Shown here: one piece after another, positions 9,563 through 27,160 of the stretch | Layout: the number at the start of each line of letters is the position of its first letter | How positions within the stretch are numbered: the stretch's first letter is position 1 | IMG/VR virus record: IMGVR_UViG_3300031857_014747 | Coordinates: 1-28,313 of that record | DNA: 28,313 nt | Strand: one strand, 5' to 3' | Source: a virus | Program-made: the position numbers and the translations under genes | Notes under the pieces: generated by a model | What the model saw: only the letters and a program-made list of their open reading frames with translations | What the model was told of the DNA's origin: nothing | Database searches by the model: none

Positions 9563-11607
9563 TTCTTAGCGCTCACAATTTCGTAGATTGATTCTCTAGC
9601 ATTTGTCAAACGACCAAGGCGTTGATTAAACAATTTTTCAAGAATGTTCAAGTGTATTTTTTCGCCTTGCGACAACTTGCCATCGTTGTAAAGCCTTGAC
9701 TTAAAGTTGCTAAAGTTAAAGGCTCTCGCCCTCTGAATAAGTGTAGCAATAAATTGCTGGTACTGAGCCCGCTGTAGTTCTTTTAGGTTCTGGAAGTAGT
9801 TTGCGTAAATAGAATTCTCGCCAGGATTTAGCAATTCCTCAATACCCATCTCGGTCCGTTTTGTGATTGATATTTCATCAAGCCCAACAAGGCCAGAACC
9901 AGGGTTTGATGTTGCAAGGGTGTACTTATTGCCCTGTCCAGCCAGCATGGCGACTGTTCCTATGTTTCGGTCCCTCGTATCGCTAAGAATGTCGGCAAAC
10001 ATCAACCTGGTTACATCCATCGGGTTGGAGTCGGCAAACTTAGAGTTTCTGTCAATCTTTGCCCCACGAATTGCAGTTTCTGCATCTTGGATGAGATAGT
10101 TACGCTTCTCGCCCGTGCCGACAAAGTAAACATCTGGCGCCTTAATCCCAAGGTGTTCCTGGATTTCAGAGGCAAGACGCTGTCCAATGTGCTCAAAGTT
10201 GTTAGCAGACGAGTTGAGGAATAGTTTGTCGCCGTTAGGCATTGAGACGAGTGACTGGCGGTCGTTGATTTTCTGCGTCTTAATTTCGCGCATTTTCTTC
10301 AAAACATCTTGCAAGATATCTGGGGCAATGTCTGCCAGACTTCCACCCTTTGACAAGTGATTAATCGCACCATCAACGGTCCCAATATCTGTCTGCTGTG
10401 CTGCTGGCGTCTGCGCTGGTTGTGCAGTTTCTGCTGCGGTTGGCTTTGCCGTGCGCTTCTTATTGAATACAGTGGTTGCCCAGCGCTCCCGTCCGTCTGG
10501 TCCAACTTCGTTTGGATTGGAAATTCCAACGAACTTCTCGCTGTATCCGATTCCATCTCCAGTTTCGGTTGCAACCATCTTTAGTCTTGACGCTGGGTCT
10601 TTGTCATTTGACGACGCGATTGCTGCGTTCACTGTCCGACCAAGTTTGCGACGCTCGCCCACGGTTAGTGGTCGCTTCTTCTCAAGGGTCAATGTTGAGC
10701 CACCAGGAAGAACATACTTGAGACTTTGAATTCCCGTGTTTGACAAAAGCCCCAACTCATCTTTCCCGATGGTGTCAGGGGTTAGATGGTTGGAAAGGTA
10801 TGTTGCGCCTTCCATGTCTCGGTTATCTGGAATGGTTCTTAAAACGGAGGCTGGAACTACTGGTTCAAGAATGAATCCGTCTCGTCTAACCATTCGTGCG
10901 GCTGGAGCAGTTTGAGCGCCAAGCGGAGTCACTAACTTGTCAACTTCAAGTTTCAACTTCTGTGGATTTGAAATCGCAACTTTTGGAATTTGCGGTTTTC
11001 GTGAATCAACAATGCTTCCTGGATACTCGCCAGCACCAAGCGTTTCGCCCTGCGTTGTTTCACCAGGCCTAACCGCGTTTCGTACTGCACGAATTGCTGC
11101 AATAGCCAAACCAAGTGGGCCAGGAATATCAAATAGTTTTGCACCACAGTTTGAGAACTTTTTATCAGTGAATCGCCCACCGTACTGATAGCCCTCAGGG
11201 CAGTGGTATGTCCTGTCTCTTCCACCAAGACCGCGACCTGGAATTCCAGGAACGCTTGGCATGCCTGGGGTTAGTGCGCCGAATACAGTGCTTCTAATTG
11301 GGCTTCTGATGATGCTTGAGTCACCAGGAAGGGCTACTGAGCCAGCAGCCTGAATTCCCTGCAGAATTGGATTACTTGAGCCGATTGAACCAACTCGCTT
11401 TACCTCGTACTCGCGCATGCGACCGTTGCGTTTTGCGAGAGCCTTAAATGTAATTAGTTCCCCACGATTTGCGGGCAAAGAGCGCATTACATTGTTCGGC
11501 GCCGTTTTTCCCGACGCAAACACTACGCGCACTTTGGTAATCATTGAGTTCGGGCAGCAAGCACTTGCAAATTCAAGTGTCTTGATTTCCTGTACTAATT
11601 CATGCAT
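9559..11607 (-). CDS. Cys-module protein with kinase-fold C-terminal domain (682 residues)
   Basis: Starts at ATG 11607, 15 bp after the previous stop, with only a weak GGA upstream. It ends in an ATGA overlap with the 1948-residue gene. Residues 1-75 form a small N-terminal domain. A Gly/Pro linker (113-127) precedes the Cys module C136-P-E-G...GRFTD...C154, then FDIPGP. Residues about 452-600 resemble a HipA/PI-kinase-like fold: NGDKLFLN (458-465), QRLASEIQEHLGIKAPDV (476-492), DTRDRN (543-548) and GLVGLDE (572-578). The LAS...LG[IV].A.DV stretch aligns with the kinase-fold domain of the next gene, so the two look homologous. There is no calcium-loop module; the Cys module occupies its place. 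Function is inferred from the fold. An inactive structural version is possible. Confidence 0.82.
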   Translation of the reverse strand: MHELVQEIKTLEFASACCPNSMITKVRVVFASGKTAPNNVMRSLPANRGELITFKALAKRNGRMREYEVKRVGSIGSSNPILQGIQAAGSVALPGDSSIIRSPIRSTVFGALTPGMPSVPGIPGRGLGGRDRTYHCPEGYQYGGRFTDKKFSNCGAKLFDIPGPLGLAIAAIRAVRNAVRPGETTQGETLGAGEYPGSIVDSRKPQIPKVAISNPQKLKLEVDKLVTPLGAQTAPAARMVRRDGFILEPVVPASVLRTIPDNRDMEGATYLSNHLTPDTIGKDELGLLSNTGIQSLKYVLPGGSTLTLEKKRPLTVGERRKLGRTVNAAIASSNDKDPASRLKMVATETGDGIGYSEKFVGISNPNEVGPDGRERWATTVFNKKRTAKPTAAETAQPAQTPAAQQTDIGTVDGAINHLSKGGSLADIAPDILQDVLKKMREIKTQKINDRQSLVSMPNGDKLFLNSSANNFEHIGQRLASEIQEHLGIKAPDVYFVGTGEKRNYLIQDAETAIRGAKIDRNSKFADSNPMDVTRLMFADILSDTRDRNIGTVAMLAGQGNKYTLATSNPGSGLVGLDEISITKRTEMGIEELLNPGENSIYANYFQNLKELQRAQYQQFIATLIQRARAFNFSNFKSRLYNDGKLSQGEKIHLNILEKLFNQRLGRLTNARESIYEIVSAKK
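11128..11202 (-). repeat. Shared Cys module, copy 1
   Basis: Residues 136-160 of the 682-residue protein: CPEG, then GGRFTD, then NC and FD. It is matched in the 1897-residue protein by CPPG, NQFTD, NC, FD with similar spacing. The two Cys could form a disulphide or a metal site, although only two are conserved. It occurs in the two giants that lack the calcium-loop module. Confidence 0.65.
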
Positions 11608-11622
11608 TTAAAATTCCGTTCG

Positions 11623-12246
11623 TTATCCGCAGCACTTGGTTGGCAGGTATTCTGCGGTAATCATTTTCCCGTCTGGTGACTCGCCAACTGTCTCCCAGTT
11701 GTCGTTGTTGCGTAGGTAATCAGAGAAATCTGGCTCCATCTCAACAAAGTCAGCAAGTACTTTCATGGCATGCGACATGTCTTCGTTTGTCACTACTGGG
11801 TTTGCCTTGCTTTCGTTTTGGCTCCACTCAATAGGCGAAAAGAAAACATCGTCATCGTCGTAAGCACTCTTGCCGCCAAGTTTTCCTGGGGCGTTAATTG
11901 GCCTTTTGAGTCGGCGTGCAAAATCGGCATCTGTCCAGTTGTTTTTCTTCAACTTTCCTTTGCAATTCTTCATTCCTGGGTGATGACAACCCTCGTTTGG
12001 CCATAGACCAGTTGTTTCGTGGTGGAGCCATGCACAAATGTTCTCAAGTGGGTAAAGTTCTGGATGGTCAGCGAGGATGACGCGACAACGACTGAATCCG
12101 CCTGGCTTCTTCATGATTGGGCGCCAGTAGCGCAATAGGCGCTCAAGGTTCCCACGGCGAGGACCACGGCCCTTGAGAATGTCACCAGTGACGCGCTCTT
12201 GTGGAATTATTCCGCCAAGTGGGTCGGCCTTGTAGTTATCAATCAT
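11623..12246 (-). CDS. Cys/His-rich small protein, 207 residues
   Basis: I choose ATG 12246, which overlaps the preceding gene by 8 bp, rather than a start far upstream at 12465. The upstream option would read about 73 residues through a well-formed gene in another frame. The protein begins MIDNYKADPLGG. Visible features are a basic patch (KGRGPRRGNLERLLRYWRP, 25-43), SRCRVILADHP (52-62), CAWLHHETTG (71-80), GCHHPGMKNC (86-95), an acidic DDDD stretch (130-133) and a CC pair near the C-terminus. The Cys/His cluster may bind zinc. The 'RC ... C..LH..TG' pattern resembles a short domain I associate with capsid-region proteins of actinobacterial phages; that is recollection, not a verified match. 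The product is otherwise unknown. Confidence 0.7.
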   Translation of the reverse strand: MIDNYKADPLGGIIPQERVTGDILKGRGPRRGNLERLLRYWRPIMKKPGGFSRCRVILADHPELYPLENICAWLHHETTGLWPNEGCHHPGMKNCKGKLKKNNWTDADFARRLKRPINAPGKLGGKSAYDDDDVFFSPIEWSQNESKANPVVTNEDMSHAMKVLADFVEMEPDFSDYLRNNDNWETVGESPDGKMITAEYLPTKCCG

Positions 12247-12721
12247 TGTTTTCTTGTTTCTCTCGCATTTTCTTTCTAGATAAAACCTGTTTGCGCAGTT
12301 GCTCCATTGTCGGAGCCTGCTTTGGTTTGCGGGGTCCTTCTTTTGCGTACTTTTCAAGGCCTGGTCTAATCCAGTCCATGAAATCTTTGGTTGGGATGAT
12401 GCTTCCATCATTCCACATTTCATAAACCTCAATGTCTCTTTCATCCAAGAATACCAGTTTTGCAAATGCCTCGTCCCTACCTATTGATTTAGGTGCAGTG
12501 GCGATTGCAGATGCTTCAAACCCATCTTTCAATTGGTTTCTTTTTGCCGCATGAATGTCTTCACCATCAACAAACTTGCGAAGATTACCAACAAATGTTG
12601 ACATGCCAGTCATCTCTTTGTTTGTGGTTGGCCATGCGGAACCAAAAATCCTAAACCATTTTTGTTGCCAAACTGGAAGGTCGTCGTAGCCTTTTATTTT
12701 GCCTATGCCTATTTTGTCCAT
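12239..12721 (-). CDS. Small hypothetical protein, 160 residues
   Basis: Starts at ATG 12721, overlapping the end of the 1268-residue gene by 13 bp, and ends 8 bp inside the next gene, so translation is probably coupled. It is not a recognised family. The N-terminus (DDLPVWQQKWFRIFGSAWP, 14-32) is aromatic and amphipathic. The middle holds LVFLDERDIEVYEMWNDGSIIP (88-109). The C-terminus (about 122-160) is a very basic helix rich in Lys/Arg/Glu, ending KKMREKQENND. No Cys, signal peptide or membrane segment is seen. Its position between giant effector-like genes would suit an assembly factor or a protective partner. That is inference only. Confidence 0.75.
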   Translation of the reverse strand: MDKIGIGKIKGYDDLPVWQQKWFRIFGSAWPTTNKEMTGMSTFVGNLRKFVDGEDIHAAKRNQLKDGFEASAIATAPKSIGRDEAFAKLVFLDERDIEVYEMWNDGSIIPTKDFMDWIRPGLEKYAKEGPRKPKQAPTMEQLRKQVLSRKKMREKQENND

Positions 12722-15700
12722 TTTGTTCCGACTACCGTTCTTTTGTTGTCAATAACAATGTGATTTTCTGATTTTATAGACTGTTCCAAATCGGTTCCTG
12801 GACTATGGAGAAGCCAAGTCGCATATTTCGTCAGTGCCGCTGTTTCTTCTGGTGTCAGCCTCTGTCCACCAAGGATGTTCATCCCTGACTTAATCGCCGC
12901 ATTAAGTTCAGATGGCAGTTCTCTATACCCGTATTCCCCTAGATAGGAAAGAATTTCAATACCGCTTTGTGCTGCTGTTGTTGCTTTGCGATACCCCTTT
13001 TCAACATACGACTCACCTCCAGCAACAGCCATTTTTTTGACTATGCCCTTTATCAAGTTTTTCTCGTCAGGATTTAAGTCATCAAGGCTGAATTGTTGAC
13101 TAATTTTGGAAAAAAGCGCATAGCCGAACCTGTCACCACCACCCGAACTGTAGTTATTGCGCTGGTGCATTCTTACATCTTCGGCGACACCTCTGCGAAC
13201 AGCAATTTTTTGTTCTGGGGTAAGAGAATCCCATAGTTCGCCCCATGGTTTTGTTCTTGCTTTTTCCATAATGTCACTGTCGCTATACAGAGAAGCAATA
13301 AAATTTTCTAGACCAATATTTGAGCCGTCGCCAAGGAGCAGCACAGAGCCATCGTACGGCGACATGCTTGAGTTTCTGCCTTCGGCAAAAAAGGAATCAG
13401 ATTCCGCGAGGTTCGCTAGGTGCTGAATAAATTCAGATGGGTCCATGTCCAGGGATGGGAGCGTCATCCCGCTGTCTGGGTCGGTGCCAAAACCTAAATC
13501 TTGAGGATTCTGTGCTGTCTGGAACATGTGGCTTGCTCGCGCTGTCATGCCCATCGCCTGAAGCGCCCGTGCGAACTTTGCATTTGCTTCCGAATCATCT
13601 CCAAAAATCTCTGGCAGCCCGTTGCGCATGAGGTCTTTAATAACGGCAAATTGATTGCTATTTCGTGCTAGACCATCCACAACTCCACCGTACTGGGAGA
13701 ATCCTCCATCTGACTGTGGTGCAATATTTGTGTCTTGCGTCATCGTGATGAAGCGCGCGCCACTCGCAATGTTGGTCATTGAGAGCACGCGCCCAGCACT
13801 GATAATGGAAACTAGTTCTCCAGTGGTGAGTTCATCACTTCTGATTTTTGCCTGACGAACAACGGATGCAAGTTTTGCTCCGCTACCAGGGCTAGGCCTT
13901 GTGGGGATTGCGCTATCTGGCATGCCCTCAAGAATTCGTGCATAATCTTCAAGCAGTTTATTAAACTTCCTTCTTTGTTCTTCTGAAACTTTAACTGTTG
14001 ACCTTGTTGATGGGTCAAATAGCGGCTGAGAATCTAGTAGGTTGATTTGTTTTTGGAAATCAGCGATTGCTAAATCAATGTTTTTTATATCTTCTTCAAG
14101 TTGTTTAACATCTTCCCTAATTTTTTGGAGCAGAGGCGCAGCAAGTGGGTCTGTTTGTCTTTCCAAATTTTGAATGATTCGCCTATTTTCGGCGAGAGTA
14201 TCTGCGGCATTTTTTCTATTCACCTTCAAGACCATAAAGGCTGCTCCATGAAAACCTTCAATCAGGCCCTGTTCTTCAGGGTCAATTAAAAATAGGGTTT
14301 CGTATCGCTCTAGAAAACCATATGCCGCCATCTCTTCCAAAGACGAAGTAAGCGATTCTTTGAATGGTTCTTCTGGACCGTTCTCAATTTGGTCAATCTG
14401 GTACCAACTCCATAGTTCGCGATGGTCGGTTGCAGATGAAAGCAAATTTAATTCGTTTCTTTCGTCCCTGCGAAGGCTGCTCTTTGCCTTTAGTTCGTTC
14501 ATCCGTATGTCACGCCGTGCTAAGACTGCTTTTTCCAGGTCATTATAAATGGCTATGTACTCATGACCATGACCGTGTTCGTGGTGGGCGGTGCCTAGGG
14601 CGAGCATTTCGGATAGGTCTTTTGCTTTTTTTGCTCTTCGCTCTGGGGTGTCAACATCTATTTTTTCTTCAATATCCGCTATCTCTCCGACAATTTTTTC
14701 TATTTCCTGTCTGATTTCAGAAATATCTTTTTGCATGTTGATGTTTTGTTCTGGAGAAAAAACTCCAGAATCACTAGAAATCTTAAATTGTCGTTCTTTG
14801 TCTTTTAATTTTTTTTCTAAATCTTGCACAGATTTTGACAATTCTTCTTTCTTCGCTGAAAGTTTTTTACTAGTAACTTCATCTTCATCAGAAAGCCATG
14901 CGGTAACTGCAATTCTATTTCCAGTTTGCTGAGTCAAACGAAATAGGTCAAGTATTGATATGTTGCTATTTGTCGCTTCCTCTCTTGGAAGTCCAATTTG
15001 ACTCAACAGTTCTGATTCTGCACGCTGATAGGCAACAATATGACCTGGTGCATAAAGTTTTTCAACTCTTCCATTACTTCCTATTTTGAGGCCAGGCTTG
15101 AATCCCCAGTAACCGCTAACACCACTTGAATAACCAATATGACCTTGCGTTTGAACAAGTGCCCATCTGGTTATTCGCTCAAGCAATTCTCTTTTATCGC
15201 TATTTGTTGATAAACTTTGTAGTTCTCCGTCAATGTAATTCTTAAGAGTTAATAGTTCTGCTGGATTTGATACTCGGAATGTTGGTCCACCGCGACCAAG
15301 TTGCATCTTAAGGTCTTGGAACCCCATTGGAAGTGGCCTCATTGATGATTCACCCTTTAGATATTTCATCAAGTCCCTTGCAACTTTTGCAGATACTTTT
15401 TCAGCCCTGTCAAGGTCCATGTAATAGAAGTTATGCCCAATGGGTGAATTCGGTAGGTTTTCTGACTCTTTCATAAATAGCAAATGTGAAGCAAGAAGCG
15501 AAATTTCCCAAGATTCCAATTCTTCTGTTGCATCTTTATCCAGAAGGAAATCAAATGAAACATGTTTCTGCAACTCATCGTGCCTTGCTGGCCTGTCCAT
15601 TAGGTATGTCGGGTGGATTTTTGCAAGAATCTCGTGTGCGTCGGCAACAGTTTTTGGAACTACCCCATTATTCCAATGTTCAAATGCTTCTAATTCATGC

Positions 15701-16515
15701 TCATTCAATTTATCTTTTATCTTTTTAAAGCCAAATTTTGACGCGAAGTTTCGGCGCGTGAACTCTGTAAGTTCCCTAATGGTTGCTGGTATCCCAATAG
15801 CGGAAGAAATTGCACGCATTTGAGATGAAACCCTTTTTCTTCTTGCGTCAACATTGATTAATGGTCCATCAACATCTGGTAGTTGAGAATCAGCGGTGAC
15901 GCTTGACAAGGTATTCATAAGTGCGGTGCTAGATACTCTTGATGGGTCTGGCATTTCCCTTGATGTGCCGTCAAAAATCATTCCGTCACCATCTGAGTCG
16001 CGGCGCTTCTTTGGGTCTAGTACGCCCTCAATCTCCTCCATTGAGCGACGAACAAATCTCTTGCCTGTGCTTCTTTTTGGAGAAAAGGCACGACCAATTG
16101 CCGAACCAAGCCGACCCCTCACCGCCTTTTCTTCAAGCGTGTTGGAGCGCCTTGCGATGTCAAAATCAAGCGCCCGATTCATAAGGCCGTGAAGGATTGA
16201 TTTACGACCGAGGATGTCGTCTTTTATCGGAACCGTTTTTAGAAGTTCATCGTCTGGCAGGAAGGCTTTTGCAATAAAAACATTGTTCCAAAGTGCTTTT
16301 TCTCTTTGGTTCAGCGAGTCTTGCCACAGAAATTTGTGGAAATCGCTATTCTTCATTTTTTTAACTCGCGGCTCAGAGCGAACAAACTGCCAGAAATCTA
16401 TTAATTGTTTTCCGCCGAGGTCATCAACGAGGACGCCGTCATTCCGCGTTCCCTCTGCATCAATGATGTAGTACAACTTTTTGTTGTCAATTTTTCCAAC
16501 AAGTACGGATTTCAC
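12709..16515 (-). CDS. Giant modular protein (1268 residues): calcium-loop module, zincin-like metallopeptidase, coiled coils
   Basis: Starts at GTG 16515 in a GTGA overlap with the preceding small gene; AGGA lies upstream. Residues 1-125 are an unrecognised N-terminal domain. The shared head module spans about 133-193 (GRLGSAIGRAF, RRDSDGDGMIFDGT, REMPDPSR). Residues 200-540 are a long helical region. A predicted coiled coil (about 549-620) leads to the His-rich motif HHEHGHGHE (644-652), which contains HExxH at H645-E646-x-x-H649; EEMAAYG (727-733) could supply the third zinc ligand. This suggests a zincin-like metallopeptidase, common in phage polyvalent proteins. A second coiled coil spans about 775-830. 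The C-terminal 400 residues are unrecognised. No canonical GLxS site was found here; the module is followed by TLSSVT (202-207) instead. The gene call is firm and the peptidase assignment moderate. Confidence 0.85.
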   Translation of the reverse strand: MKSVLVGKIDNKKLYYIIDAEGTRNDGVLVDDLGGKQLIDFWQFVRSEPRVKKMKNSDFHKFLWQDSLNQREKALWNNVFIAKAFLPDDELLKTVPIKDDILGRKSILHGLMNRALDFDIARRSNTLEEKAVRGRLGSAIGRAFSPKRSTGKRFVRRSMEEIEGVLDPKKRRDSDGDGMIFDGTSREMPDPSRVSSTALMNTLSSVTADSQLPDVDGPLINVDARRKRVSSQMRAISSAIGIPATIRELTEFTRRNFASKFGFKKIKDKLNEHELEAFEHWNNGVVPKTVADAHEILAKIHPTYLMDRPARHDELQKHVSFDFLLDKDATEELESWEISLLASHLLFMKESENLPNSPIGHNFYYMDLDRAEKVSAKVARDLMKYLKGESSMRPLPMGFQDLKMQLGRGGPTFRVSNPAELLTLKNYIDGELQSLSTNSDKRELLERITRWALVQTQGHIGYSSGVSGYWGFKPGLKIGSNGRVEKLYAPGHIVAYQRAESELLSQIGLPREEATNSNISILDLFRLTQQTGNRIAVTAWLSDEDEVTSKKLSAKKEELSKSVQDLEKKLKDKERQFKISSDSGVFSPEQNINMQKDISEIRQEIEKIVGEIADIEEKIDVDTPERRAKKAKDLSEMLALGTAHHEHGHGHEYIAIYNDLEKAVLARRDIRMNELKAKSSLRRDERNELNLLSSATDHRELWSWYQIDQIENGPEEPFKESLTSSLEEMAAYGFLERYETLFLIDPEEQGLIEGFHGAAFMVLKVNRKNAADTLAENRRIIQNLERQTDPLAAPLLQKIREDVKQLEEDIKNIDLAIADFQKQINLLDSQPLFDPSTRSTVKVSEEQRRKFNKLLEDYARILEGMPDSAIPTRPSPGSGAKLASVVRQAKIRSDELTTGELVSIISAGRVLSMTNIASGARFITMTQDTNIAPQSDGGFSQYGGVVDGLARNSNQFAVIKDLMRNGLPEIFGDDSEANAKFARALQAMGMTARASHMFQTAQNPQDLGFGTDPDSGMTLPSLDMDPSEFIQHLANLAESDSFFAEGRNSSMSPYDGSVLLLGDGSNIGLENFIASLYSDSDIMEKARTKPWGELWDSLTPEQKIAVRRGVAEDVRMHQRNNYSSGGGDRFGYALFSKISQQFSLDDLNPDEKNLIKGIVKKMAVAGGESYVEKGYRKATTAAQSGIEILSYLGEYGYRELPSELNAAIKSGMNILGGQRLTPEETAALTKYATWLLHSPGTDLEQSIKSENHIVIDNKRTVVGTKWTK
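15937..16119 (-). repeat. Shared head module, copy 3 (calcium-loop type)
   Basis: Residues 133-193 of the 1268-residue protein. GRLGSAIGRAF, a basic stretch, EGVLDPKKRRD, the DSDGDGMIFDGT loop and REMPDPSR are all present. It differs from the others by Ser for Val in the loop and Ser for Thr at the end. No GLxS site follows closely. Confidence 0.8.
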
Positions 16516-16808
16516 TTCTTATTATCCTGCTCTTTTAGGCGACGGCTTAACCTATAGTTTGACACGCTTTCCCACGGCTCTGGCGTGCCTGGTGCGTATT
16601 TCATCAACTCTTGACGAATCTCATCTGGAGCAACATTTACCCAACTCATTGTTGCTAGGTGTCGCATTGCTTTAGATTTTTCTGGTTCTTTTTCTGAAAT
16701 GTTGAAATGCTTGTAAAACTGCTTCAGCGTTTTAACTCCTGGAAAGTCAAAAGCATTTGTTTTAATCCAGTCGGAATTCTGCTGTCCGTCGTCAACCCTG
16801 ATTGGCAT
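16512..16808 (-). CDS. Small hypothetical protein, 98 residues
   Basis: Start and stop are both fused to neighbours: TAATG with the 1897-residue gene (the stop and start share base 16808) and GTGA with the 1268-residue gene. This is strong evidence for a real, translationally coupled gene. The sequence is unrecognised. It is helical and charged, with KTLKQFYKHFNISEKEP (26-42), a central WVNVAPDEIRQELMKYAPG (56-74) and a basic C-terminus (LSRRLKEQDNKK). There is no Cys, membrane segment or signal peptide. Like the 160-residue protein, it sits between giants and could be a chaperone, regulator or antidote for one of them. Its context is the only support for that. Confidence 0.78.
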   Translation of the reverse strand: MPIRVDDGQQNSDWIKTNAFDFPGVKTLKQFYKHFNISEKEPEKSKAMRHLATMSWVNVAPDEIRQELMKYAPGTPEPWESVSNYRLSRRLKEQDNKK

Positions 16809-19800
16809 TAGAAGTCGCTCCCAGTATCTTTCAGCGTTTCAGCAAACTCGTCCAATTCGGACCATAGTGCAGCGTTTGACCTTGCTGCCTGCATTTTAGT
16901 AACTCGCCTAACGAATGCTTCTCTTCCACGAATCGTTCCGCTCAAACCACTTCGCCCAAGAACGATTGCTTCTGATTCTCCGAGACAACCACTTCCAGTT
17001 AATGGTAGAGCAATTATGTCTTCTGCGTTGATTGTTGACTCCATAACAACTAGACCGAATCCACTGGCAATGTTTGGGTCAACAGAAAATGAAGACAATG
17101 GCCTAAGTTCAAGAGTGTCAACAATTTCTCTATCTGAATCACCAAGTTCGTCTCTGATTTCATCGCTGTGATATCCACGATAAACCGCCATTTTTTTAAT
17201 ACCTTTTTTCTTCAAATACTCCTGCGTTTGACTGTATTGCGCTTTCAGGAAAACAGTAAGGAGTTTCTTTTGTTCTGGAGAAATTGGAAGAGGGGCATGC
17301 TCTTCTGGACCTAGAACCCCCTCCCTTTCACCAACTTTTGCACGCCAGCCAAGTGAATCATTTAATTCAAAAATTTCACGCGCAACATCTTGGACTCTTA
17401 TGCTCATTATATTCTTATCATTTGATGTTATCTGCCATTGTTTTACCAACACAGATGCCGCATCGTCGTATAGCGCTTTAGTCGCGTCATCGCTCGGGTA
17501 GTTGTATGGCATCCAGTCATCGGTGTATCGCTCGTATTCGCCATCAATCCCTCGGGGGCGCTCTTTTTCAATTGTTCCAGTTTCTGGGACATACCAGAAA
17601 GTCACTAGACTTCCATCTCCATTGTTGTATGAATCAACAATATCCGAAATGTGCTGAAAAATATTTTCACCATAAGATGGCAAGTCATAGACTCTTTCAG
17701 ATTGTCCTGCCTTTATAAGTTCTTCAATGGTGAACTGTTCGGATAAAGCATCGCCGATATGCGCTGATACCAGGCTCTTGGCTGCCCGCGCCAATACCTC
17801 TTTATCCGAATAGCCAATTGTTTCACCTGGTTTTTGTAGTGCTTCTTTCCTCAATTTCATCCACCTAGCAAGCCGCTCAATAGGAACTTCATCGGCCATG
17901 TCAAATATGTCTTCAAGAATTTCGTTTTTTAGTAAAGATGTAACTTGATTTTCGTCAAGTTCGCCAGCATCTGCGACACCTTCTTTTTGAGCCCTCAATG
18001 GGGTCACATTTGCAAGTCGCTTGATACCTGGGTGTTTTTGGGAAGAGCCATTTTGCCGCTGGGCGTTCAACGAATCTGGTGTGGTGCGACGAACTTTCGC
18101 AAGAATGCGACCAAGTTTTTGCTCTAAGCCCATTACTTCATCACTGCGAATATCGTCTAATTTCCCCCAACTCGTGCCTTTTATGCGCCGTAAAAAATTT
18201 CCTCGCAAGTCATCTGACATTTCTCCCAAGCGGCGGTTGCCATTGGATAACTTTTCTTCAATATCTTTTGTTATTCCTTCAAACATGTCATCAACTTGTT
18301 TGCGGAAATCAGAGCCACTAATTCCAGATTTTTCAAATTCATCCTGTGCCCGATAAATCATTTTTTTTGCAGTCGCTATTGTGTATGCGGTCGGAGTCGG
18401 TCCCCCAGCATCCCAGATGTGAAGTAGTTCTTCCGCAAAATCAATTTCATGTTCTTCAAAATCACTCATCCAACTAGAGATTTTTTTATTTTTTCTTCCT
18501 CGCCATGCTGCTGCGGCGGTCATGGCGATAGTTGAACCATACTTGAGCGCATTTTTTGTTGAAGGTTTCATCCCCTCCCAGTTAGATGCATCTTCTTCAA
18601 CCTTCTCTAATGCCTCATCATAGTACTTGTGGGACTTCGCTCCAATTCTGTCTCTTGCAGAAGCAAGACCAACTGGAGACATTCGTGCAACTCGGTCATC
18701 TCCGCGTTTTCCTACTGGCAAGTTGATTGAGCGTGCTGCATCTATGGCGTTGATTGCTTTTTGGGCTTCCATCCTGCGAGATGCTGGTGTATTCGGGTTT
18801 GAAACAATTTCTTGCAACGGCTCGCGCATGCTTGAAAGAACTTCGTTTGGACTTGCCTGCTCAACAAGGCGTGCAACTATTGTGCCGTCATCTTGACGAC
18901 TGACTATTTTAATTTTTCCTGGAGGCATAAGCAATGCGGAATATGATTTCTTGCCGTTTCTGCCAGGCATGAAGTCTTCATCTGGGATTGCGCTTGTTCC
19001 TCGTGGGAGAGTTAGGACTAAGCGTGTTCCTGATGAATCGCGATTTGGGGTCAAGACTGTTTTTTGGTCAGCAATAATTCCTCTGAACATATTTGACACT
19101 TCAACCGAAGAGCCTTCAACAAGTCCATCCCGACCAGGGATATCCATGTCAAGCATTACCGTGTAGTCGTCATCAAGGGTGTGCCTATCCATGACGCTAA
19201 GAAGTGGGGCAATATCTTCTTCAATACGCTTATCAAATGTTTTTCCAAGCGCTAAGCCTTTTCGTATTCTTGCACTTTCCGTTACGGAGTATGAAACATG
19301 CGAAGGAACCGAGAGTATTCGTGCGTCACTTCGTTCTGGCATGACTTTTTCCATTGCAGCAATTTCCATTGGAGTTGAACTGGAAATAACTTCATCACGC
19401 ATTTTTGCGCCATGGCTTCTTGCAGAGGCGCGGCCCTTGAATGGACGAGTTTTCTCAACCCCAGAAGACAGTATGGATTCGGCAAAGCCGCGCAAATCCC
19501 CTGCCCGCAATGGTTCATACTCGCCTTCTGGTGTAAGTTTTGAAAACCCGAGAGGTATCCCGCTGCTTTCCTCAAGAGACACTGTAAACAATTCTGCTAC
19601 TGATTCAGATACGACCATCTCTGAGCCTTCGCGCCAGCGCTTCCTACGGACAAGATTTATTGTTAGTGGCATATCTCCAGAAGATGCTTGCTCAAGTGAC
19701 CATTCTGAATTTTTCAAGTCGCTAAAAAACTCAACTGCGCCAACTGCTCGCTCCAGCCACTTGCGCTTCTTTGATTCTTTTACTGCTACGACTTCTTTCG

Positions 19801-22501
19801 CAACCTTGTCCATTGGGGCATCAAGGTGGGCAAGCGCGGCAGTTACACTTTCATCCTTGGGGTCAATTATCCCCATCGCGCGAGCGGCACTTAATTCGGC
19901 GGCTGATTCAGCAAACATTAAAGCGCGTTGATTTCTAACCGAATTTTGTAATTGCTCATCATCAAATGAATCAATGCCTCGTATTGTTGAAATAGCGTGA
20001 TTAAGAACTTTTAGTTCCATTGACTCTTCTGGGGTTAGGTCTTTATCAAACCCCGAACGCTCGCGAAGTGTTGCGAACCTATCCTCAAGGTCGTTGATGA
20101 AGGTTGCTCGGTCTTCATCTTTTAAGTCCATTATTTTATTTAGTATGTGCATTGTCTCAAGATGCATTCGTGGATAAATGCCAGACATTCCATCCTTGAC
20201 CATTGAGTCCATAACAATGCCAACTTTTGCATGAACCGCCGACATCGCTTTTTCGTCAGCGAAGAGCATCTCCATTGTAAGCCCTGGGAAATTTCCAGTA
20301 ATTATGTCATCCGCAAGTTTTGCAATTTCAACATTTGACAGCGTGCTTATACGGCGACCTTTTTTGTCATGAGAAATCATGTACATAACCATTGCGTACT
20401 GTTGTGCGTGTGTCATTTCGTGCTGGAAGACAAACATCGCATGGCCAATTGCTCCACCATGATTTTTTGCCACATCACCCATATATCCATGGGTTTTAAT
20501 TGAGTCAAAAACATCTCCGCCCAACATGTCGTTGAGCATCGCCATCTTTGTTGCAGAGTCAACCGCTTTCTTCACTTCGTCAATTTTTGAGACTTCAAGT
20601 CCGCTTCCGCTAGTTCCGTATAAACGCCATGCTTTTGGGTTTCTTGGCGCTGGTGGCTTACCATCAAGAACCATGCCCAACGGGTTCCAAAGCATTGATA
20701 TGTTTCCATCTTTATCTGGAACAACCATCGCTTCAAGACCAGTTCCAACACGGGGGTCAAATGGGTCCATAACACCGACGCGCTTTAGCAATTCTGCTTT
20801 TGCTGGATTCATTTTGTGTTCAGCCAGCATCCCAAGCATGAATCCGTGTTCGGCTGCAAAATAGTTATTCATTCTGTGAGCCATGTTGCGATGAAGTGCT
20901 CGCTCTAGGTCAGTCTTCAATGTTTCTGGAGCGTCGCCATTTAGGTAAGCCATCGTTGCGTTGCGAATTGCTTCTTCTTTTTTCTTTTTGGTTAAACCAG
21001 TCCACATCCTCTTGACAACCGAAGCATCCCTCGCTTCAAGAGTGCCATCAGGGTCTTTAACCATGTTCTGAACAATCATGTTCAACACATTGGCGTGATG
21101 CTGAGCGACTTGCTCCTCAAATGGAAGAGTTCTATCAACACCCGTCCATAGAGTGTCTTCAAAGTTGATGTCCCATCCAGCCTTGCGGAGTTCCTCCATC
21201 GCCTTCATATATCCAGCACTGACGCTTTGCGGGCTGCTTGGGTCTATATCTATTCCAAGGTCTTTCATGAGTTGCAGAGCAACATCAATTCTTCCGTTAA
21301 GAGCATCGGTCATTCGTGCTTTTTGCTCGGCGAGCATGACGATTCTGTCTAGTTCTTCTGGAGTTATGTCTGGGTGAGCATCAAGAACACGAGCACGAAC
21401 TTCAGCAGCAAATGCATCTGGGTCAATTCGTGCAATCGGGAGTGAGTCTGGACCGATTAAATCATCTGCCGACTCTGGGACTTCTGGAACTGCATCAACT
21501 TTTATAATTGGCGTTGCGGATGCCGCAGAGCCTGACCCTGGTTCTATACGGCCTGTTCGCTTGAACCCTTCCGCTCCTGCTTCATCAATCAGGTCGGTAT
21601 CATCAAACGGCAACCAAACAGTACGCTTTCCATCAGTCATCTCTATGCGCGCTCTTGAACTTGCAAGACCACTAACGATGTCAACCAAACTGTCGTATCG
21701 TTTTTCTGGGAACCTGGCTGTTCTCCCATCTATGACAAATCTTTCTTTTGGAGAATAGGTCATTGCTTCATTCAGCAAAGACATGTCATCAATTAGAGAA
21801 AGGTTTTGATTTATTGTTGACCGCAAAAGCCTGCTTGCCATTCCTTCAGTGATGTCAAAACAGTTTGAGCCAGATGAGTCGGTGAATTGGTTGGCCGCAG
21901 GAACGCCAGGTGGACATCGCAGTTTTCCAGCGGCATCCTGCCAGAGACCGAGTGCCGATGCTGCTCGTGTTGCTATTTCTCCACCTGGAACAAGTTGACC
22001 AATAGTCCTTCCTAGCGATTTTGTATCAAATTCTCCAGTCCGTGGATTCCGCACAACATCCGAGTAAGTGACGCTAACTCCGTTCTTCTTTTTTTCGCTA
22101 GCCTGCGCCATTCGCGCACTTGTTTGACTTGGCTTTAATTCGGCGATTGGGTCTATCCAGCCAAAGTTTGGAAACTCATCACTTCCAGTTCTCCCCCATT
22201 GAGCAATCCATGGAATGAAAACCTGACCAGTTTTTTTCTTTGCGTTAGGGTCAAAAACAGCAAGGCCGAACCTTTTGTTTGGGCCTTTGCCCTTTTTGCG
22301 CTTTTCCTTGTTATCTGCAGACGGCGGCTTTTTACCAACATTTTTGCCGAGTGCTTTTACGGAAAGTTCAGCGTCAAATGACTTTGTAACAACTTCTTTT
22401 TTTGATGCAAGAAACTCAATGGCGCGTTCGTCTGCCGATTTTGGCGGTGCAAACTTCCTGCTTACAAGCGTGCGTGTAAGACGAAGTGATTTACCCGTCA
22501 T
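16808..22501 (-). CDS. Giant modular protein (1897 residues): Cys module, metallopeptidase, C-terminal ADP-ribosyltransferase
   Basis: I choose ATG 22501, preceded by GGAG at a 6-nt spacing, over a TTG four codons upstream that lacks a good site. Residue numbers count from this ATG. SLGRTIGQLVPGG (162-174) leads to the Cys module (C196-PPG, NQFTD, NC214-FD). GLASSR (278-283) is followed by RTVWLPFDDTD, like the WMPC modules of the 865-residue protein. Helices surround HEMTH (694-698), a zincin HExxH in FVFQHEMTHAQQYAM. Residues about 1105-1215 may be a degenerate ART-like domain. GRASAR (1023) and GLASAR (1278) are further putative cut sites. The C-terminus (about 1767-1866) is an R-S-E ADP-ribosyltransferase: VYRGY (R1775), PLSSFS (1801-1806) and GESE (E1842, E1844). 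Such enzymes transfer ADP-ribose from NAD+ to protein targets. Likely a packaged host-takeover polyprotein. Confidence 0.87.
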   Translation of the reverse strand: MTGKSLRLTRTLVSRKFAPPKSADERAIEFLASKKEVVTKSFDAELSVKALGKNVGKKPPSADNKEKRKKGKGPNKRFGLAVFDPNAKKKTGQVFIPWIAQWGRTGSDEFPNFGWIDPIAELKPSQTSARMAQASEKKKNGVSVTYSDVVRNPRTGEFDTKSLGRTIGQLVPGGEIATRAASALGLWQDAAGKLRCPPGVPAANQFTDSSGSNCFDITEGMASRLLRSTINQNLSLIDDMSLLNEAMTYSPKERFVIDGRTARFPEKRYDSLVDIVSGLASSRARIEMTDGKRTVWLPFDDTDLIDEAGAEGFKRTGRIEPGSGSAASATPIIKVDAVPEVPESADDLIGPDSLPIARIDPDAFAAEVRARVLDAHPDITPEELDRIVMLAEQKARMTDALNGRIDVALQLMKDLGIDIDPSSPQSVSAGYMKAMEELRKAGWDINFEDTLWTGVDRTLPFEEQVAQHHANVLNMIVQNMVKDPDGTLEARDASVVKRMWTGLTKKKKEEAIRNATMAYLNGDAPETLKTDLERALHRNMAHRMNNYFAAEHGFMLGMLAEHKMNPAKAELLKRVGVMDPFDPRVGTGLEAMVVPDKDGNISMLWNPLGMVLDGKPPAPRNPKAWRLYGTSGSGLEVSKIDEVKKAVDSATKMAMLNDMLGGDVFDSIKTHGYMGDVAKNHGGAIGHAMFVFQHEMTHAQQYAMVMYMISHDKKGRRISTLSNVEIAKLADDIITGNFPGLTMEMLFADEKAMSAVHAKVGIVMDSMVKDGMSGIYPRMHLETMHILNKIMDLKDEDRATFINDLEDRFATLRERSGFDKDLTPEESMELKVLNHAISTIRGIDSFDDEQLQNSVRNQRALMFAESAAELSAARAMGIIDPKDESVTAALAHLDAPMDKVAKEVVAVKESKKRKWLERAVGAVEFFSDLKNSEWSLEQASSGDMPLTINLVRRKRWREGSEMVVSESVAELFTVSLEESSGIPLGFSKLTPEGEYEPLRAGDLRGFAESILSSGVEKTRPFKGRASARSHGAKMRDEVISSSTPMEIAAMEKVMPERSDARILSVPSHVSYSVTESARIRKGLALGKTFDKRIEEDIAPLLSVMDRHTLDDDYTVMLDMDIPGRDGLVEGSSVEVSNMFRGIIADQKTVLTPNRDSSGTRLVLTLPRGTSAIPDEDFMPGRNGKKSYSALLMPPGKIKIVSRQDDGTIVARLVEQASPNEVLSSMREPLQEIVSNPNTPASRRMEAQKAINAIDAARSINLPVGKRGDDRVARMSPVGLASARDRIGAKSHKYYDEALEKVEEDASNWEGMKPSTKNALKYGSTIAMTAAAAWRGRKNKKISSWMSDFEEHEIDFAEELLHIWDAGGPTPTAYTIATAKKMIYRAQDEFEKSGISGSDFRKQVDDMFEGITKDIEEKLSNGNRRLGEMSDDLRGNFLRRIKGTSWGKLDDIRSDEVMGLEQKLGRILAKVRRTTPDSLNAQRQNGSSQKHPGIKRLANVTPLRAQKEGVADAGELDENQVTSLLKNEILEDIFDMADEVPIERLARWMKLRKEALQKPGETIGYSDKEVLARAAKSLVSAHIGDALSEQFTIEELIKAGQSERVYDLPSYGENIFQHISDIVDSYNNGDGSLVTFWYVPETGTIEKERPRGIDGEYERYTDDWMPYNYPSDDATKALYDDAASVLVKQWQITSNDKNIMSIRVQDVAREIFELNDSLGWRAKVGEREGVLGPEEHAPLPISPEQKKLLTVFLKAQYSQTQEYLKKKGIKKMAVYRGYHSDEIRDELGDSDREIVDTLELRPLSSFSVDPNIASGFGLVVMESTINAEDIIALPLTGSGCLGESEAIVLGRSGLSGTIRGREAFVRRVTKMQAARSNAALWSELDEFAETLKDTGSDF
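21854..21916 (-). repeat. Shared Cys module, copy 2
   Basis: Codes for CPPG...ANQFTD...SNCFD in the 1897-residue protein, about 30 residues after an LGRTIG helix like that in the calcium-loop modules. This joins the two module types. The GMASR variant of the cut site follows at residue 220. Confidence 0.65.
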
Positions 22502-22507
22502 GACGGG

Positions 22508-22511
22508 CTCC
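22508..22511 (-). promoter_or_regulatory. Ribosome-binding site deciding the start of the 1897-residue gene
   Basis: GGAG on the minus strand lies 6 nt before ATG 22501. The alternative TTG at 22513 overlaps this site and has no purine-rich stretch at a suitable distance. The ATG is therefore the better start. Confidence 0.65.
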
Positions 22512-22539
22512 AATTTCTAGAATCTGTTTTTGATTCTTT

Positions 22540-23805
22540 TTAGAGGTTGTTGTCTTCTTCGGCATTAAGGAGTTCAAACTCAAGCAATGATGCCATGAAA
22601 CTGTTGTCAGCGACTTCAATGCTGTCGTCATCCTTCTTGCTCATTTCTGCTCCTCCAGCAAGCCAGTTCGCTGGAATCATGCTTTCAGCACCGAGTTCTT
22701 TTGCGCGCTTCATGATGTGACGCTTTGCTGCCTCTTTGTCCTTAGCGCGACCATAAGCGGAAATTGCATTCTGCAAATCACCCTTGTTGCCGATTGGGTA
22801 TGAGCCGTCTGGAAGAGCGTTGCCTTCTTTGGCCATTGCGGTTCGTTGGTCTTCAGTGAATGCACGCTTGAGAGCAATTTCTGCTGCTTCGGCTTCAATG
22901 TCTTCTGCTTCCTCTGGCTCGTACTTGTCGTAACCAAGGACTTCACCATCAAGAGCAACGAACACATCGTAAGACTTGCCATCAATGCCGTCAATTTCAA
23001 CAGCGTATGCGTCGTAGCCTTCAAATACATCTGGCTCTACAGCAACTACGCTTCCTTCAATTGACTTGACTGCAATTTCTGCTGCCTCATTGAAGTCAAT
23101 GAGCATCATCTCGTCAAGAAGTGACTTCTGCTCAAATGCATCTTGGTCAAGTTTGTGCCAGCCAAGAACTTCGCCGTTAGTTCCGTCAACGAAGACTTCA
23201 ACCGCGCGACCGTCTTTTGCTTGAACATCAACAACGAACATGTCTGCCTCTGCTGAGTATCCAGAGTCAAGAATCTTTCCTTCAAACATGTCTTCTGCAA
23301 GACCTTCAACATGGAGCAAGCCTGGCATTCCTTTTTCGGAAACGCATCCACCTGGGCAGTCATCGCAGACGCCAGTTCCGCCTGGGTACACCTTGCGGTC
23401 AACCGCACACAGGTATCCAGTGCGACCAACATCAGCGGACTTCATTCCCATTGAAGCAAGACGACGATTGCGCATGGCTTCCATGTCGCCAGCCATTGGC
23501 TCTTCTTCGTCTTCCTCTTCTTCTTCTTCTTCGTCTTCTTCTTCGGCCATTGGAGCAACAGGCTTCTTCTTTGGCGCAGGCATCTCTTCGTCTGTGGAAA
23601 TGTCTTCAACCATTTCCTCTTCTGGCATCTCTTCTTCTTCGTCTTCCATCATTGCCTTCATTTGCAATGGCATTGCTCCGCACTTGCCGCAAACTTTTGC
23701 GCCAGGAGTAAATCCGCATTCTTCTGCGCCAAGAGATTTAGCGCACTTGAGCACCGAACCGTCAGCATCAATCTTTACTACTGCTTTATCGCCGTACTCG
23801 CCCAT
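22540..23805 (-). CDS. Acidic zinc-ribbon/PepSY-like head-assembly protein, 421 residues
   Basis: Starts at ATG 23805 behind AAGGAG. Residues 21-43 hold Cys pairs (C21, C30, CGKC at 39-42) suggesting a zinc ribbon. A very acidic stretch (54-103) is nearly all Glu/Asp. RLASM (115-119) follows and resembles the putative protease sites. A second Cys cluster lies at 133-154 (C133, C147, C150, C154). Two PepSY-like repeats follow: about 172-218 and 236-295, each ending in GEVLG[WY]. The C-terminus (315-382: AFTEDQRTAMAKEG, ALPDGSYPI, AKRHIMKRAKEL) is a short domain frequent near prohead proteases and portal genes of phages. It lies between the protease and the effector genes. No other scaffold gene is visible, so it may act as scaffold, decoration protein or protease regulator. 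The domain reading is moderate and the role is inferred. Confidence 0.82.
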   Translation of the reverse strand: MGEYGDKAVVKIDADGSVLKCAKSLGAEECGFTPGAKVCGKCGAMPLQMKAMMEDEEEEMPEEEMVEDISTDEEMPAPKKKPVAPMAEEEDEEEEEEEDEEEPMAGDMEAMRNRRLASMGMKSADVGRTGYLCAVDRKVYPGGTGVCDDCPGGCVSEKGMPGLLHVEGLAEDMFEGKILDSGYSAEADMFVVDVQAKDGRAVEVFVDGTNGEVLGWHKLDQDAFEQKSLLDEMMLIDFNEAAEIAVKSIEGSVVAVEPDVFEGYDAYAVEIDGIDGKSYDVFVALDGEVLGYDKYEPEEAEDIEAEAAEIALKRAFTEDQRTAMAKEGNALPDGSYPIGNKGDLQNAISAYGRAKDKEAAKRHIMKRAKELGAESMIPANWLAGGAEMSKKDDDSIEVADNSFMASLLEFELLNAEEDNNL

Positions 23806-23962: not shown

Positions 23963-26900
23963 CTAGTTTCTTTTCGGTTTTTCTGCCGATGGAGTTGCTT
24001 TTTCTATAAATGTAGACATTGATGATTGTGCAATCTTCTCCAGAAGTTCAGCAAAAATCTCTCCTCGCGAACCACCTTTTTCCATTTGTCGGTCAACAAC
24101 TGTCATCACGGCGTCAAGGATTGAGTCCGCTTCGCTTTGAGTGACATTCAGGGTTCCAACATTTGTTCTACGGGAACCAGTTTTTCCAGACTCTTGACGC
24201 TTGAGCAAGGTTGACAGTCTTGTCAGGGCGTCAGATGTTGCCTTGTCTTTTGCTTCTCGTATTTCCTTCGGAAGTGATTCTTCAATCTTCTTCCACCAAG
24301 TTGCCTCAGCGATGATTTCAGTCCGAGGTTCAACTTTGCCCCTTTCAGAGCGCAATCCACCTGGGGTTCTATTCTGGAATGTGAGACCTGCACCTGAAGT
24401 CTTTCGTCGGGAACTTGCATCCCTGTATGAGCGTGCAAGTTTTAGCGAGTTCTGCATTCTTGACGGAATATCTGTTTCGTCAAATCCGCGAACTCGGCCC
24501 GAGACCGCTCTTTCGGATAGGTCCAACTCGCCTTCGTCGCCTCTGTCCGCAGTGGATTCGCGACGGCGCTCAAGCATTTTGTCAAGCGCCTCGTTAACGG
24601 TCGTGAAGTAACTCCTAAATTTTCCAGCAGCACTAGAAATTTTGTCTGGTGTTTCTGGCTTGCCTTCTTCTTCGGCTTTTGGCTTCTTAGGCTTTGGACC
24701 GTACGAGGTGTTCAATTCCCTTAGCAGTTTTGAGATTGCGTCTTGTGCGTCATTAATTGCATCTTCATTTGCACCATCGCCAAGTGCGTTGTCAATTTCC
24801 GATAGCGCGTTGTTGACTAATTCGGCAACATCGTTTTTGCCAGTTTCATCAAGTTTTGCGTTAGTTGCACGAAGTCGCTCTGTCAGTTTCCCGATAACGG
24901 CGGCCTCATAGATGTCAACTTCTTCTTTTTCGTCATCGGTCAAGGATTGATACCGCTTGCGAAGTAGCGCAGGGTCTATGGTCAGGTCATCATCGGTTTG
25001 CTTTGAAGCCTTTGGTTCTGGCTTTGCTTCTGGTTTTGGCTCTGGCTTTGGCTCTGGTTTTGGAGCAGTAGCAGCGCGACCGACCGAACGCTGGCGAGCC
25101 TGAGCCCTCCTATCGCGCCTATCCATTTCCTCGTAGACCTGCGCCAGAATTCTGTCTCTGTCGCGAGTCGCAAGTTTGGCCGTAGTCGCTGATGTTGCAA
25201 GCCAGTTTTCTTTATCCTCAAGGGACATTAGGTCCCAGCCTTCTGGTTTTACTTTTTCAAATGAATATCCTGCAAAATTCTGCTGACCTTCTTTTTTGGG
25301 TGCTGCAGCGCCAGTTGGGCGACCAGCACGACTGCGCGCATTATTTTGCCCGAATGCGCCAGTTGTTTTCATTTCGTTGAGGGCGTCTTCAAGGAATTTA
25401 TCAACGGCTTCACCATTTGCCTTACGATTGTTTACTTCTTCAAGAGCAGAATCAAGCATGCTTGGCGAGATGTTTGGGTCGCCGATGTACTTACGGCGGT
25501 CAATTTCATCACGAAGGTCCTTTAGTGGGCCGTCTGAATCGCTGCCAGAAAGTTTTTTAATGCCATCAAGCATTTTTGTTGCTTGGGTGCGAGTAAGTCT
25601 GACATTTAACTTTTCATCAGACTTAGGGATGGTATTTCGCTGCCTTGTTGACATCAAGCCAGTTGCGTTTGGAACAGCCCGTGTTGGGTCTGGCATCTCT
25701 CGCCAAGTTCCGTCAAAAATCATGCCGTCGCCATCAACATCGCGACGCTTTGAAGGGTCTAGGACTCCTTCTATCTGGGTGAGAGCGCGCGCTGCGCGCC
25801 TACCTTTTTTTGGACCACCTGGCCCTATTCTCCGTCCAATGCGGCCAAATAGCGACTTTGTTGCAGTCTCAATTGCTTGGTATGCGTCAAGGTCAATGTC
25901 TGATGTGATGAGAATTCCCTCTTCAGTAACCAGTGTTTCAACTTGGTGGTAATCAAAAACTGGGTCAAGAAGTTGCTTTGCTTCAAAGGCATGCTCTGGG
26001 GCGCATTGAATAATTAGTTCAGACTTTTCTTCAACTTCGGTGCCGATTATTTCTTGCAAAGTTCTTACAACCGAGTTAAGTTTTTCAATTGCGTCTGACT
26101 TGATTGAAACATTTTCATCATTGTCAATCTTCTCAAGAAGCATGTCAATTTCGTCTTCAAGAGACTTTTCAGTTCCCTTTGGCTTGACCATTCCGAACAT
26201 CAAACTCATGTCGTCTTGTGGCGCAGGTGTTGGGTACTGTGCGGCTGGCGACCCAATGTTTGGCTTTCCGCTAATTCCAGGAATTGGCGTTGGACCAGAA
26301 ATGTTTGGTCGTGGCGGAACATTCTGAACAACCGCGACTGGTTTCTGACCCATTGGCTCTGGCTTGCCAAACATGAATTGCTCGCCGTCAAAGTAGTAAC
26401 CAAGTCTGAATAATCCACGACCTGGCTTCATGAAAACGACAGATGACTCTGTTGCTTTAAGCACATGAATAGGTCCGCCAGTTCGGCTGATTAGTTCTTG
26501 CTGAACGGCTGAACGGCGCTCATCAGAAAGGGGTTGTGCTACGCCCATCGCAAATGGGTCACGAGGTTCTTGCGGACCTTCGTACTCTGGTCGGGCAATG
26601 ACAACTGCCTGTGGCATTCCCATTCCGCCCATCATGTGCATCTTCTCTTCGTCGCTCTTAACGGAGATTGTTCCAGTCAATTGGTTTGCACCGTGAAGAA
26701 CTGGAGATACTTCGTAGAGTTCAACCTCTCGCAGCAAGTTTGCTTGACGGGTGTTGTCAAAAATTGCATCAAGTGTTTTGTACCCAATTGACCACTCTTG
26801 TTCCACACCAAAGAACGCAACATTTGCGAAAGCCTCTCGCCCTTTTTCTGAGTTGAGGTTGAATTGGACTTTTGCAAATAGACCACCAATGCCAGCCATT

Positions 26901-27160
26901 TTCATTTTTGCTGGAAGACGAGGGTCGCTTGATGGGACTTCGTAAATTTCAAGAACTTTCCCGATTGGGTCATTCCAGTTGTGGCCCCAAACAACACGAG
27001 GCTTGCGGCGCATAAGACTCTTTGTGAAAGCGCCAGAGAGAACAATGTCGCCTACTGAGTCCTTATTACCAATTCCAGCAACGAAGCATTCAACAATTCC
27101 TTCTGCTTGGTCAATGTTTACCTGACCAGAGTTTGCTTTGAATTGAATTTCGTTGTACAT
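23963..27160 (-). CDS. Prohead protease fused to a long modular extension (1065 residues)
   Basis: Starts at ATG 27160 behind AAGGA (27168-27172). Residues 1-170 form an S78/U35-type prohead protease: VWGHNWNDPIGKV with His60, EQEWSIGYK with Ser124, and the ELYEVSPVLHGAN strand (148-159). Such proteases digest scaffold and trim capsid proteins inside the prohead, and normally have about 200 residues. Here about 900 more follow: a Pro/Gly-rich linker, a helical segment (about 329-375), the shared head module with the DVDGDGMIFDGT loop (474-485), GLMSTR (501-506), helical regions, a PKPEPK linker (700-718), GLRSER (935-940) and a basic C-terminus. The protease itself thus carries both the module of its presumed cargo and the presumed cut sites. 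It lies between the portal and the acidic protein, as expected for a maturation protease. The long tail may serve as scaffold or cargo and be removed by self-cleavage. Confidence 0.9.
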   Translation of the reverse strand: MYNEIQFKANSGQVNIDQAEGIVECFVAGIGNKDSVGDIVLSGAFTKSLMRRKPRVVWGHNWNDPIGKVLEIYEVPSSDPRLPAKMKMAGIGGLFAKVQFNLNSEKGREAFANVAFFGVEQEWSIGYKTLDAIFDNTRQANLLREVELYEVSPVLHGANQLTGTISVKSDEEKMHMMGGMGMPQAVVIARPEYEGPQEPRDPFAMGVAQPLSDERRSAVQQELISRTGGPIHVLKATESSVVFMKPGRGLFRLGYYFDGEQFMFGKPEPMGQKPVAVVQNVPPRPNISGPTPIPGISGKPNIGSPAAQYPTPAPQDDMSLMFGMVKPKGTEKSLEDEIDMLLEKIDNDENVSIKSDAIEKLNSVVRTLQEIIGTEVEEKSELIIQCAPEHAFEAKQLLDPVFDYHQVETLVTEEGILITSDIDLDAYQAIETATKSLFGRIGRRIGPGGPKKGRRAARALTQIEGVLDPSKRRDVDGDGMIFDGTWREMPDPTRAVPNATGLMSTRQRNTIPKSDEKLNVRLTRTQATKMLDGIKKLSGSDSDGPLKDLRDEIDRRKYIGDPNISPSMLDSALEEVNNRKANGEAVDKFLEDALNEMKTTGAFGQNNARSRAGRPTGAAAPKKEGQQNFAGYSFEKVKPEGWDLMSLEDKENWLATSATTAKLATRDRDRILAQVYEEMDRRDRRAQARQRSVGRAATAPKPEPKPEPKPEAKPEPKASKQTDDDLTIDPALLRKRYQSLTDDEKEEVDIYEAAVIGKLTERLRATNAKLDETGKNDVAELVNNALSEIDNALGDGANEDAINDAQDAISKLLRELNTSYGPKPKKPKAEEEGKPETPDKISSAAGKFRSYFTTVNEALDKMLERRRESTADRGDEGELDLSERAVSGRVRGFDETDIPSRMQNSLKLARSYRDASSRRKTSGAGLTFQNRTPGGLRSERGKVEPRTEIIAEATWWKKIEESLPKEIREAKDKATSDALTRLSTLLKRQESGKTGSRRTNVGTLNVTQSEADSILDAVMTVVDRQMEKGGSRGEIFAELLEKIAQSSMSTFIEKATPSAEKPKRN
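25007..25063 (-). repeat. Pro-Glu-Pro-Lys linker repeat
   Basis: Residues 700-718 of the protease fusion are tandem PKPE units (PKPEPKPEPKPEAKPEPK). On the plus strand the DNA shows repeated 'ggctctggcttt'-like units. It is a rigid, charged linker between two helical regions of the extension. Confidence 0.75.
25679..25855 (-). repeat. Shared head module, copy 4 (calcium-loop type), in the protease
   Basis: Residues 436-494 of the protease fusion: SLFGRIGRRIGPGG, a basic helix, EGVLDPSKRRD, the DVDGDGMIFDGT loop and REMPDPTR. GLMSTR follows seven residues later. From GVLDPSKRRD to REMPDPTR the protein sequence is the same as copy 2, while the DNA differs at many third positions. Confidence 0.82.

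Follow-up and report, generated by a model that had tools for sequence, protein, structure and literature searches.

The prohead protease gp245 of the giant Salmonella phage SPN3US uses a single motif both to cut off its C-terminal propeptide and to cleave further head proteins (PMC7411985, PMC10052503), and in phage T4 a leader steers IPI-III and Alt into the prohead and is then removed by the prohead protease (PMC7411985). The polyvalent proteins, in turn, are very large multidomain proteins with effector-like and zincin domains, which are thought to be packaged and processed (PMC5512222). The locus presented here lies on an IMG/VR virus contig of 28 kb (28,313 nt, the whole stretch that was analysed, hereafter the window), in which several very large ORFs sit between the portal and capsid genes. 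SPN3US gp245 resembles the protease of the window in being a prohead protease with a motif in its own extension, AXE in its case, that is common to packaged head proteins; however, its propeptide has 64 residues against about 890 in the window, the motif is a different one, and a drift of the motif between lineages, as seen in the window family, is not described for SPN3US. The leaders of T4 measure 10–20 residues, whereas those of the window family have roughly 200–500 and, unlike the former, end in an EF-hand-like DGDG loop or in a CP..FTD..SNC module, with many sites after it. Polyvalent proteins are paralleled by the large multidomain head-cluster proteins encoded at 696-3293 and 16808-22513 and only in part by the protease, whose domains D1, D2 and C-terminal domain have no known function; unlike the polyvalent proteins, the set is held together by a common module, by a site motif specific to each lineage and by the fact that the prohead protease follows the same plan.

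Among cultured phages, myoviruses of Gordonia and Brevibacterium are the closest relatives. The proteases of the Bendigoviruses (GMA6 gp19, Gray gp34) and gp13 of Brevibacterium phage Cantare share with the window an S78 domain (38–42% identity) and a gene located in a myovirus head cluster, just ahead of the capsid gene; in contrast to the protease of the window, they have 417–484 aa, continue into an acidic C-terminal part without a gene boundary and lack both the module and the motif. The gp27 of Gordonia phage DalanDe (L149, 11632-16533) is an S78 protease with about 1120 residues fused N-terminally, on the side opposite to that of the window.

The protease gene of the window (23963-27160, minus strand, ATG start, 1065 aa) lies between the portal and the major capsid genes: the portal gene (PHROG portal protein) is directly upstream on the same strand, and the capsid gene, represented by the part encoding the N-terminal region (2-547, minus strand; PHROG), closes the cluster. 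The large genes described next are likewise on the minus strand. Next to the protease gene is that of an acidic 421-aa protein with two PepSY stretches (22540-23805), and then that of a 1901-aa head-cluster protein (16808-22513) with the second module (CPPGVPAANQFTD..SNC at 200), sites at 282 and 1282, a zincin HEMTH at 698 and an ADP-ribosyltransferase-like (DRAT) stretch at 1759-1853, whose Pfam score of 24.1 is just under the cut-off of 25. These are followed by a 1268-aa protein with a DGDG module (175) and HEHGH (12709-16515), a 682-aa protein with the second module (9559-11607), a 1948-aa protein with a DGDG module (269) and then seven GLxS sites, every one downstream (3716-9562), and an 865-aa protein (696-3293) with a DGDG module (246) and sites at 272, 537 and 613. 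This last protein combines, in a single head-cluster product, DUF3721 (WMPC), present twice, with sigma-70 region 4 and a Zeta-toxin-like domain. A further ORF of 280 aa (11623-12465) has a TTG start and overlaps 12239-12721; the length of its orthologues (about 207–240 aa) suggests that the true start is further in. Relatives were collected from 33 loci by protein search of viral contigs and from 71 loci by a module-only search, and gene order is nearly unchanged in the closely related contigs. Cultured relatives of 696-3293, 9559-11607 and 11623-12465 were not found in the phage collection.

The preliminary description had read the protease gene as that of a prohead protease with an extension of about 900 residues, the catalytic part, with His60 and Ser124, ending near residue 170, and this reading holds. 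Residues 1–175 (26636-27160, minus strand, as are all the parts that follow) form an S78 prohead protease domain, matched by Pfam Peptidase_S78 at residues 19–174 (43.1 bits, cut-off 21) and by the PHROG head maturation protease at residues 2–175 (E = 4.5e-29); H60 and S124 are invariant across 20 homologues, and the match to GMA6 gp19 stops at about residue 186. The comparison with related protease genes that had been proposed to locate the start of the fusion places it at about residue 175 in every relative, and the extension has about 890 aa. It begins with two conserved domains predicted with pLDDT of about 80, the beta-rich D1 (residues ~210–270, 26351-26533) and D2 (residues ~380–440, 25841-26023), followed by the DGDG module (residues ~441–495, 25676-25840), in which a basic stretch precedes I.GVLDP..RRDVDGDGMIFDGTWREMPDP. 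Next come site A, GLMS (residues 501–504, 25649-25660), a charged helical region (residues 505–934, 24359-25648), site B, GLRS (residues 935–938, 24347-24358), and a linker with a helical C-terminal domain conserved in relatives (residues 939–1065, 23966-24346). The shared module, the two GLxS sites and the charged region (36% KRDE in 504–938) earlier assigned to the extension are all there.

The alignment of 11 divergent proteases gives the order protease, D1, linker, D2, module, site A, charged region, site B and C-terminal domain; both sites hold their positions, in varying form, across the 18 divergent homologues compared, although their flanks cannot be aligned, and the charged region varies in length and sequence. 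In a more distant contig (G008) the same parts occur in another order, with D1 elsewhere and D2 at the C-terminus, and the protease includes a fused domain that in the window is the separate gene 11623-12465. The structure prediction gives D1, D2 and the C-terminal domain with confidence and places both sites in stretches under pLDDT 50, within a full-length model that is poor as a whole (mean pLDDT 54.9) and in which, owing to a shallow alignment, the S78 domain itself comes out badly; both sites are predicted to lie in linkers. A structural search with this model returned only generic helical bundles for residues 725–874, with a best Z of 11.6, too low to carry much weight where models are helical.

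The DGDG module of the protease is also present in 696-3293, 3716-9562 and 12709-16515 (E = 8e-19 to 2e-20). It had no sequence match in the PDB, did not turn up in a scan of bacterial and archaeal genomes and had no credible match in cultured phages (best E = 0.6), and a description of the motif or of the module was not found in the literature searched. A second shared module, CP.G...FTD...SNC, occurs in 16808-22513 and 9559-11607 and in four proteins of G008 (L140, L141), where it is the commoner tag. Module and sites, in short, characterise the head cluster as a whole, and the family, and are no peculiarity of the protease gene: the link between extension and head proteins suspected from the window stands, the site-like motifs being real, conserved and common to other head proteins, and the observation is stronger family-wide than the window alone could reveal. 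In G001 a 3355-aa protein encoded more than 20 kb from the head cluster has a diverged N-terminal module followed by the same motif form as the cluster; this protein (80836-90900, in L117) carries eight GLxS sites, two HE..H motifs and a C-terminal HTH-like stretch.

Counts over the head-cluster proteins from eight related contigs reach 118 for GL.S, where shuffles predict 27.2, and 63 for GL.S[STR][TRS], where they predict 1.2; most scrambled or substituted control patterns are near 1. GL.T, on the other hand, is rare where GL.S is enriched (3 against 19.9 expected, same proteins). An unbiased search for over-represented three-residue patterns, in which regional composition was kept and the motif was not supplied, ranked the motif top in 9 of 12 contigs. 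The signal of the window alone is weaker than in its relatives because its form, GLxSxR, is looser. All the 18 divergent proteases, with the exception of the distant L027, have a recognisable site between the module and the C-terminal domain, in the forms GLMS, GLRS, GLAS, GARS, GMRS, SLRS and RLAS. The position of the sites is equally regular. As in T4-type proteins, the leader is upstream of all of them: the 132 sites counted in 38 proteins are, without exception, downstream of a DGDG or second module, even though 17% of the length is upstream of the module (log10 P = –12.1 if sites were uniform). In the protease the distance from the DGDG loop to site A is about 20–35 residues, in the 865-aa type often about 25, and hydrophobicity around the sites is lower than around positions drawn at random (p = 3e-18).

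The motif takes a form common to non-homologous proteins within each contig: GLxS[ST]T in G001, G006 and G010, GLxSxR in the window and G003, LRS[SG]G in G011 and G012, GARS in G013 and L[RAK]SG[RG] in G014. The form in the protease agrees with that in its neighbours (mean cosine 0.89 against 0.26 permuted, p = 5e-5), in a permutation that treats contigs as independent although they are related and motif forms follow portal clades; what gives the result its weight is the concerted change of sites across proteins that are not related. The forms are shared by protease and neighbours as if they were read by one enzyme. Architecture, conservation, polarity, linker position and this concerted change across non-homologous proteins are directly supported.

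Taken at the level of sequence, the pattern of motifs and modules fits a motif-directed processing of packaged polyproteins. In the explanation that we favour, to which we would give even chances, module-tagged head-cluster polyproteins enter the prohead and one phage protease, most likely the S78 enzyme, cuts them at lineage-specific sites. The polyproteins would follow a common plan, with an N-terminal leader closing with the shared module, processing sites in flexible linkers and then cargo domains; the module would carry the polyprotein into the prohead, and the protease would cut during head maturation at a lineage-specific site with the consensus G-L-x-S. In the protease polyprotein the leader would consist of protease, D1, D2 and module (1 to ~504), and cuts at A and B would free residues ~505–938 and ~939–1065, the S78 domain probably processing both itself and its neighbours. 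Self-processing of this type is plausible and has, by analogy, a precedent in SPN3US gp245 (PMC7411985, PMC10052503). Packaging, cleavage, the identity of the enzyme and the exact scissile bond are the parts of the model that we infer. A bolder proposal, offered tentatively and at somewhat less than even chances, is a drifting processing code in which one protease, possibly a packaged zincin, and 10–20 sites over at least four unrelated polyproteins, the prohead protease included, change together, so that the capsid would be a processing chamber for injected effector polyproteins. If the processing model were right, the motif would predict from sequence the packaged proteins and cut positions in uncultivated phages without proteomics, the family would offer a natural data set on change of protease specificity with all substrates following, and the module would be a candidate tag to load proteins into phage heads.

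Some observations speak against the favoured explanation. Unlike in SPN3US, where the capsid protein shares its cleavage motif with the other substrates, the capsid protein of the window has neither GLxS nor a lineage-form site at the expected maturation boundary; in the window lineage only SLRSE[ST]IGEAF is found there, and it is absent from other lineages. However, the capsid protein of HK97 is cut at K103/S104 (PMC10275583), and therefore an S78 enzyme could cut the capsid site and the motif sites by different rules. Furthermore, the 1268-aa protein carries a module without any site, no column of the S78 domain separates the GLxS[ST]T form from LRS[SG]G, and the GARS lineage is set apart by F7Y and S169T alone. 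The sites could be real processing sites and the cutter be the zincin in 16808-22513, with S78 maturing only the capsid, a solution that we regard as unlikely, though it is the main rival. Its HExxH is at the same place in the 13 contigs examined (13/13), the processing of polyvalent proteins by a zincin was proposed by Iyer et al. (PMC5512222), and the protein evolves fast (0.29–0.47 identity between lineages), as could be expected of a partner that follows a shifting motif, while S78 and the capsid protein are nearly unchanged across motif forms. This rapid evolution, however, covers the whole protein and thus shows no specificity, and G008 argues against either enzyme: its S78 domain is 78% identical, yet the contig has no sites, and a zincin-like HEALH and module proteins are also present there. 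As a separate observation on the capsid gene, the capsid proteins of G012, G013 and G014 (L155-L160) are 94–95% identical, other head genes being more distant and motif forms different, which suggests exchange of the gene across lineages that differ in form.

The joint change of the motif and its linker position would also be explained if the motif were bound and not cut, as a short docking motif read by a head protein and anchoring the polyproteins in the prohead. That up to nine copies lie between the domains of one protein and that the leader is free of sites favours cutting, and we consider docking improbable.

The preliminary description went further and saw an apparent protease-scaffold fusion that could process itself; on such a reading the extension would be the phage scaffold and be removed during maturation. 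The middle part of the extension is indeed charged and helical, and an acidic C-terminal part does occur on GMA6-type proteases: in cultured GMA6 the S78 protease, the acidic part and an AMPDGSFPI-type C-terminal domain make up one 484-aa protein. In the window, however, the acidic, scaffold-like part is encoded by the next gene, 22540-23805, which matches the C-terminal part of the GMA6 protease with 52% identity over 90 residues (E = 3e-24) and is strongly acidic (102 DE, 41 KR), whereas the extension between 504 and 938 is balanced (79 KR, 78 DE). Neither the acidic part nor the AMPDGSFPI-type domain, which in both GMA6 and DalanDe is on the protease, is found on the protease polypeptide of the window, and the module of the extension recurs in giant non-scaffold proteins. 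The scaffold fusion is therefore not supported, and we now find it very improbable.

That the repeats of the motif are recombination hot-spots or linkers copied in domain shuffling, devoid of protein function, would suit the rearranged domain order of G008 and the 3–9 GLxS sites per orthologue, but it is scarcely credible, since codon choice at the sites varies just as background usage in the contigs does, both serine codon boxes included, which argues for selection on the peptide and not for a DNA repeat; a DNA-repeat origin was rejected.

A minor observation regards the expression of the protease itself. In L094 and L095, from two metagenomes, the protease stretch is identical and the frame stops after 435 aa, a little way into the module; the remainder runs in the –1 frame and is open as far as the C-terminal domain (junction at 2689-2721 in L094 and 1571-1603 in L095). 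This split was seen only in these two among the contigs examined, and the hairpin of L094 is not clearly more stable than shuffled sequences (z = –0.77 and –1.72). At the junction a slippery A_AAA_AAA is followed, after 6 nt, by a 6-bp GC hairpin, and the arrangement looks like a programmed frameshift, from which both a short protease and a longer, fused product would result.
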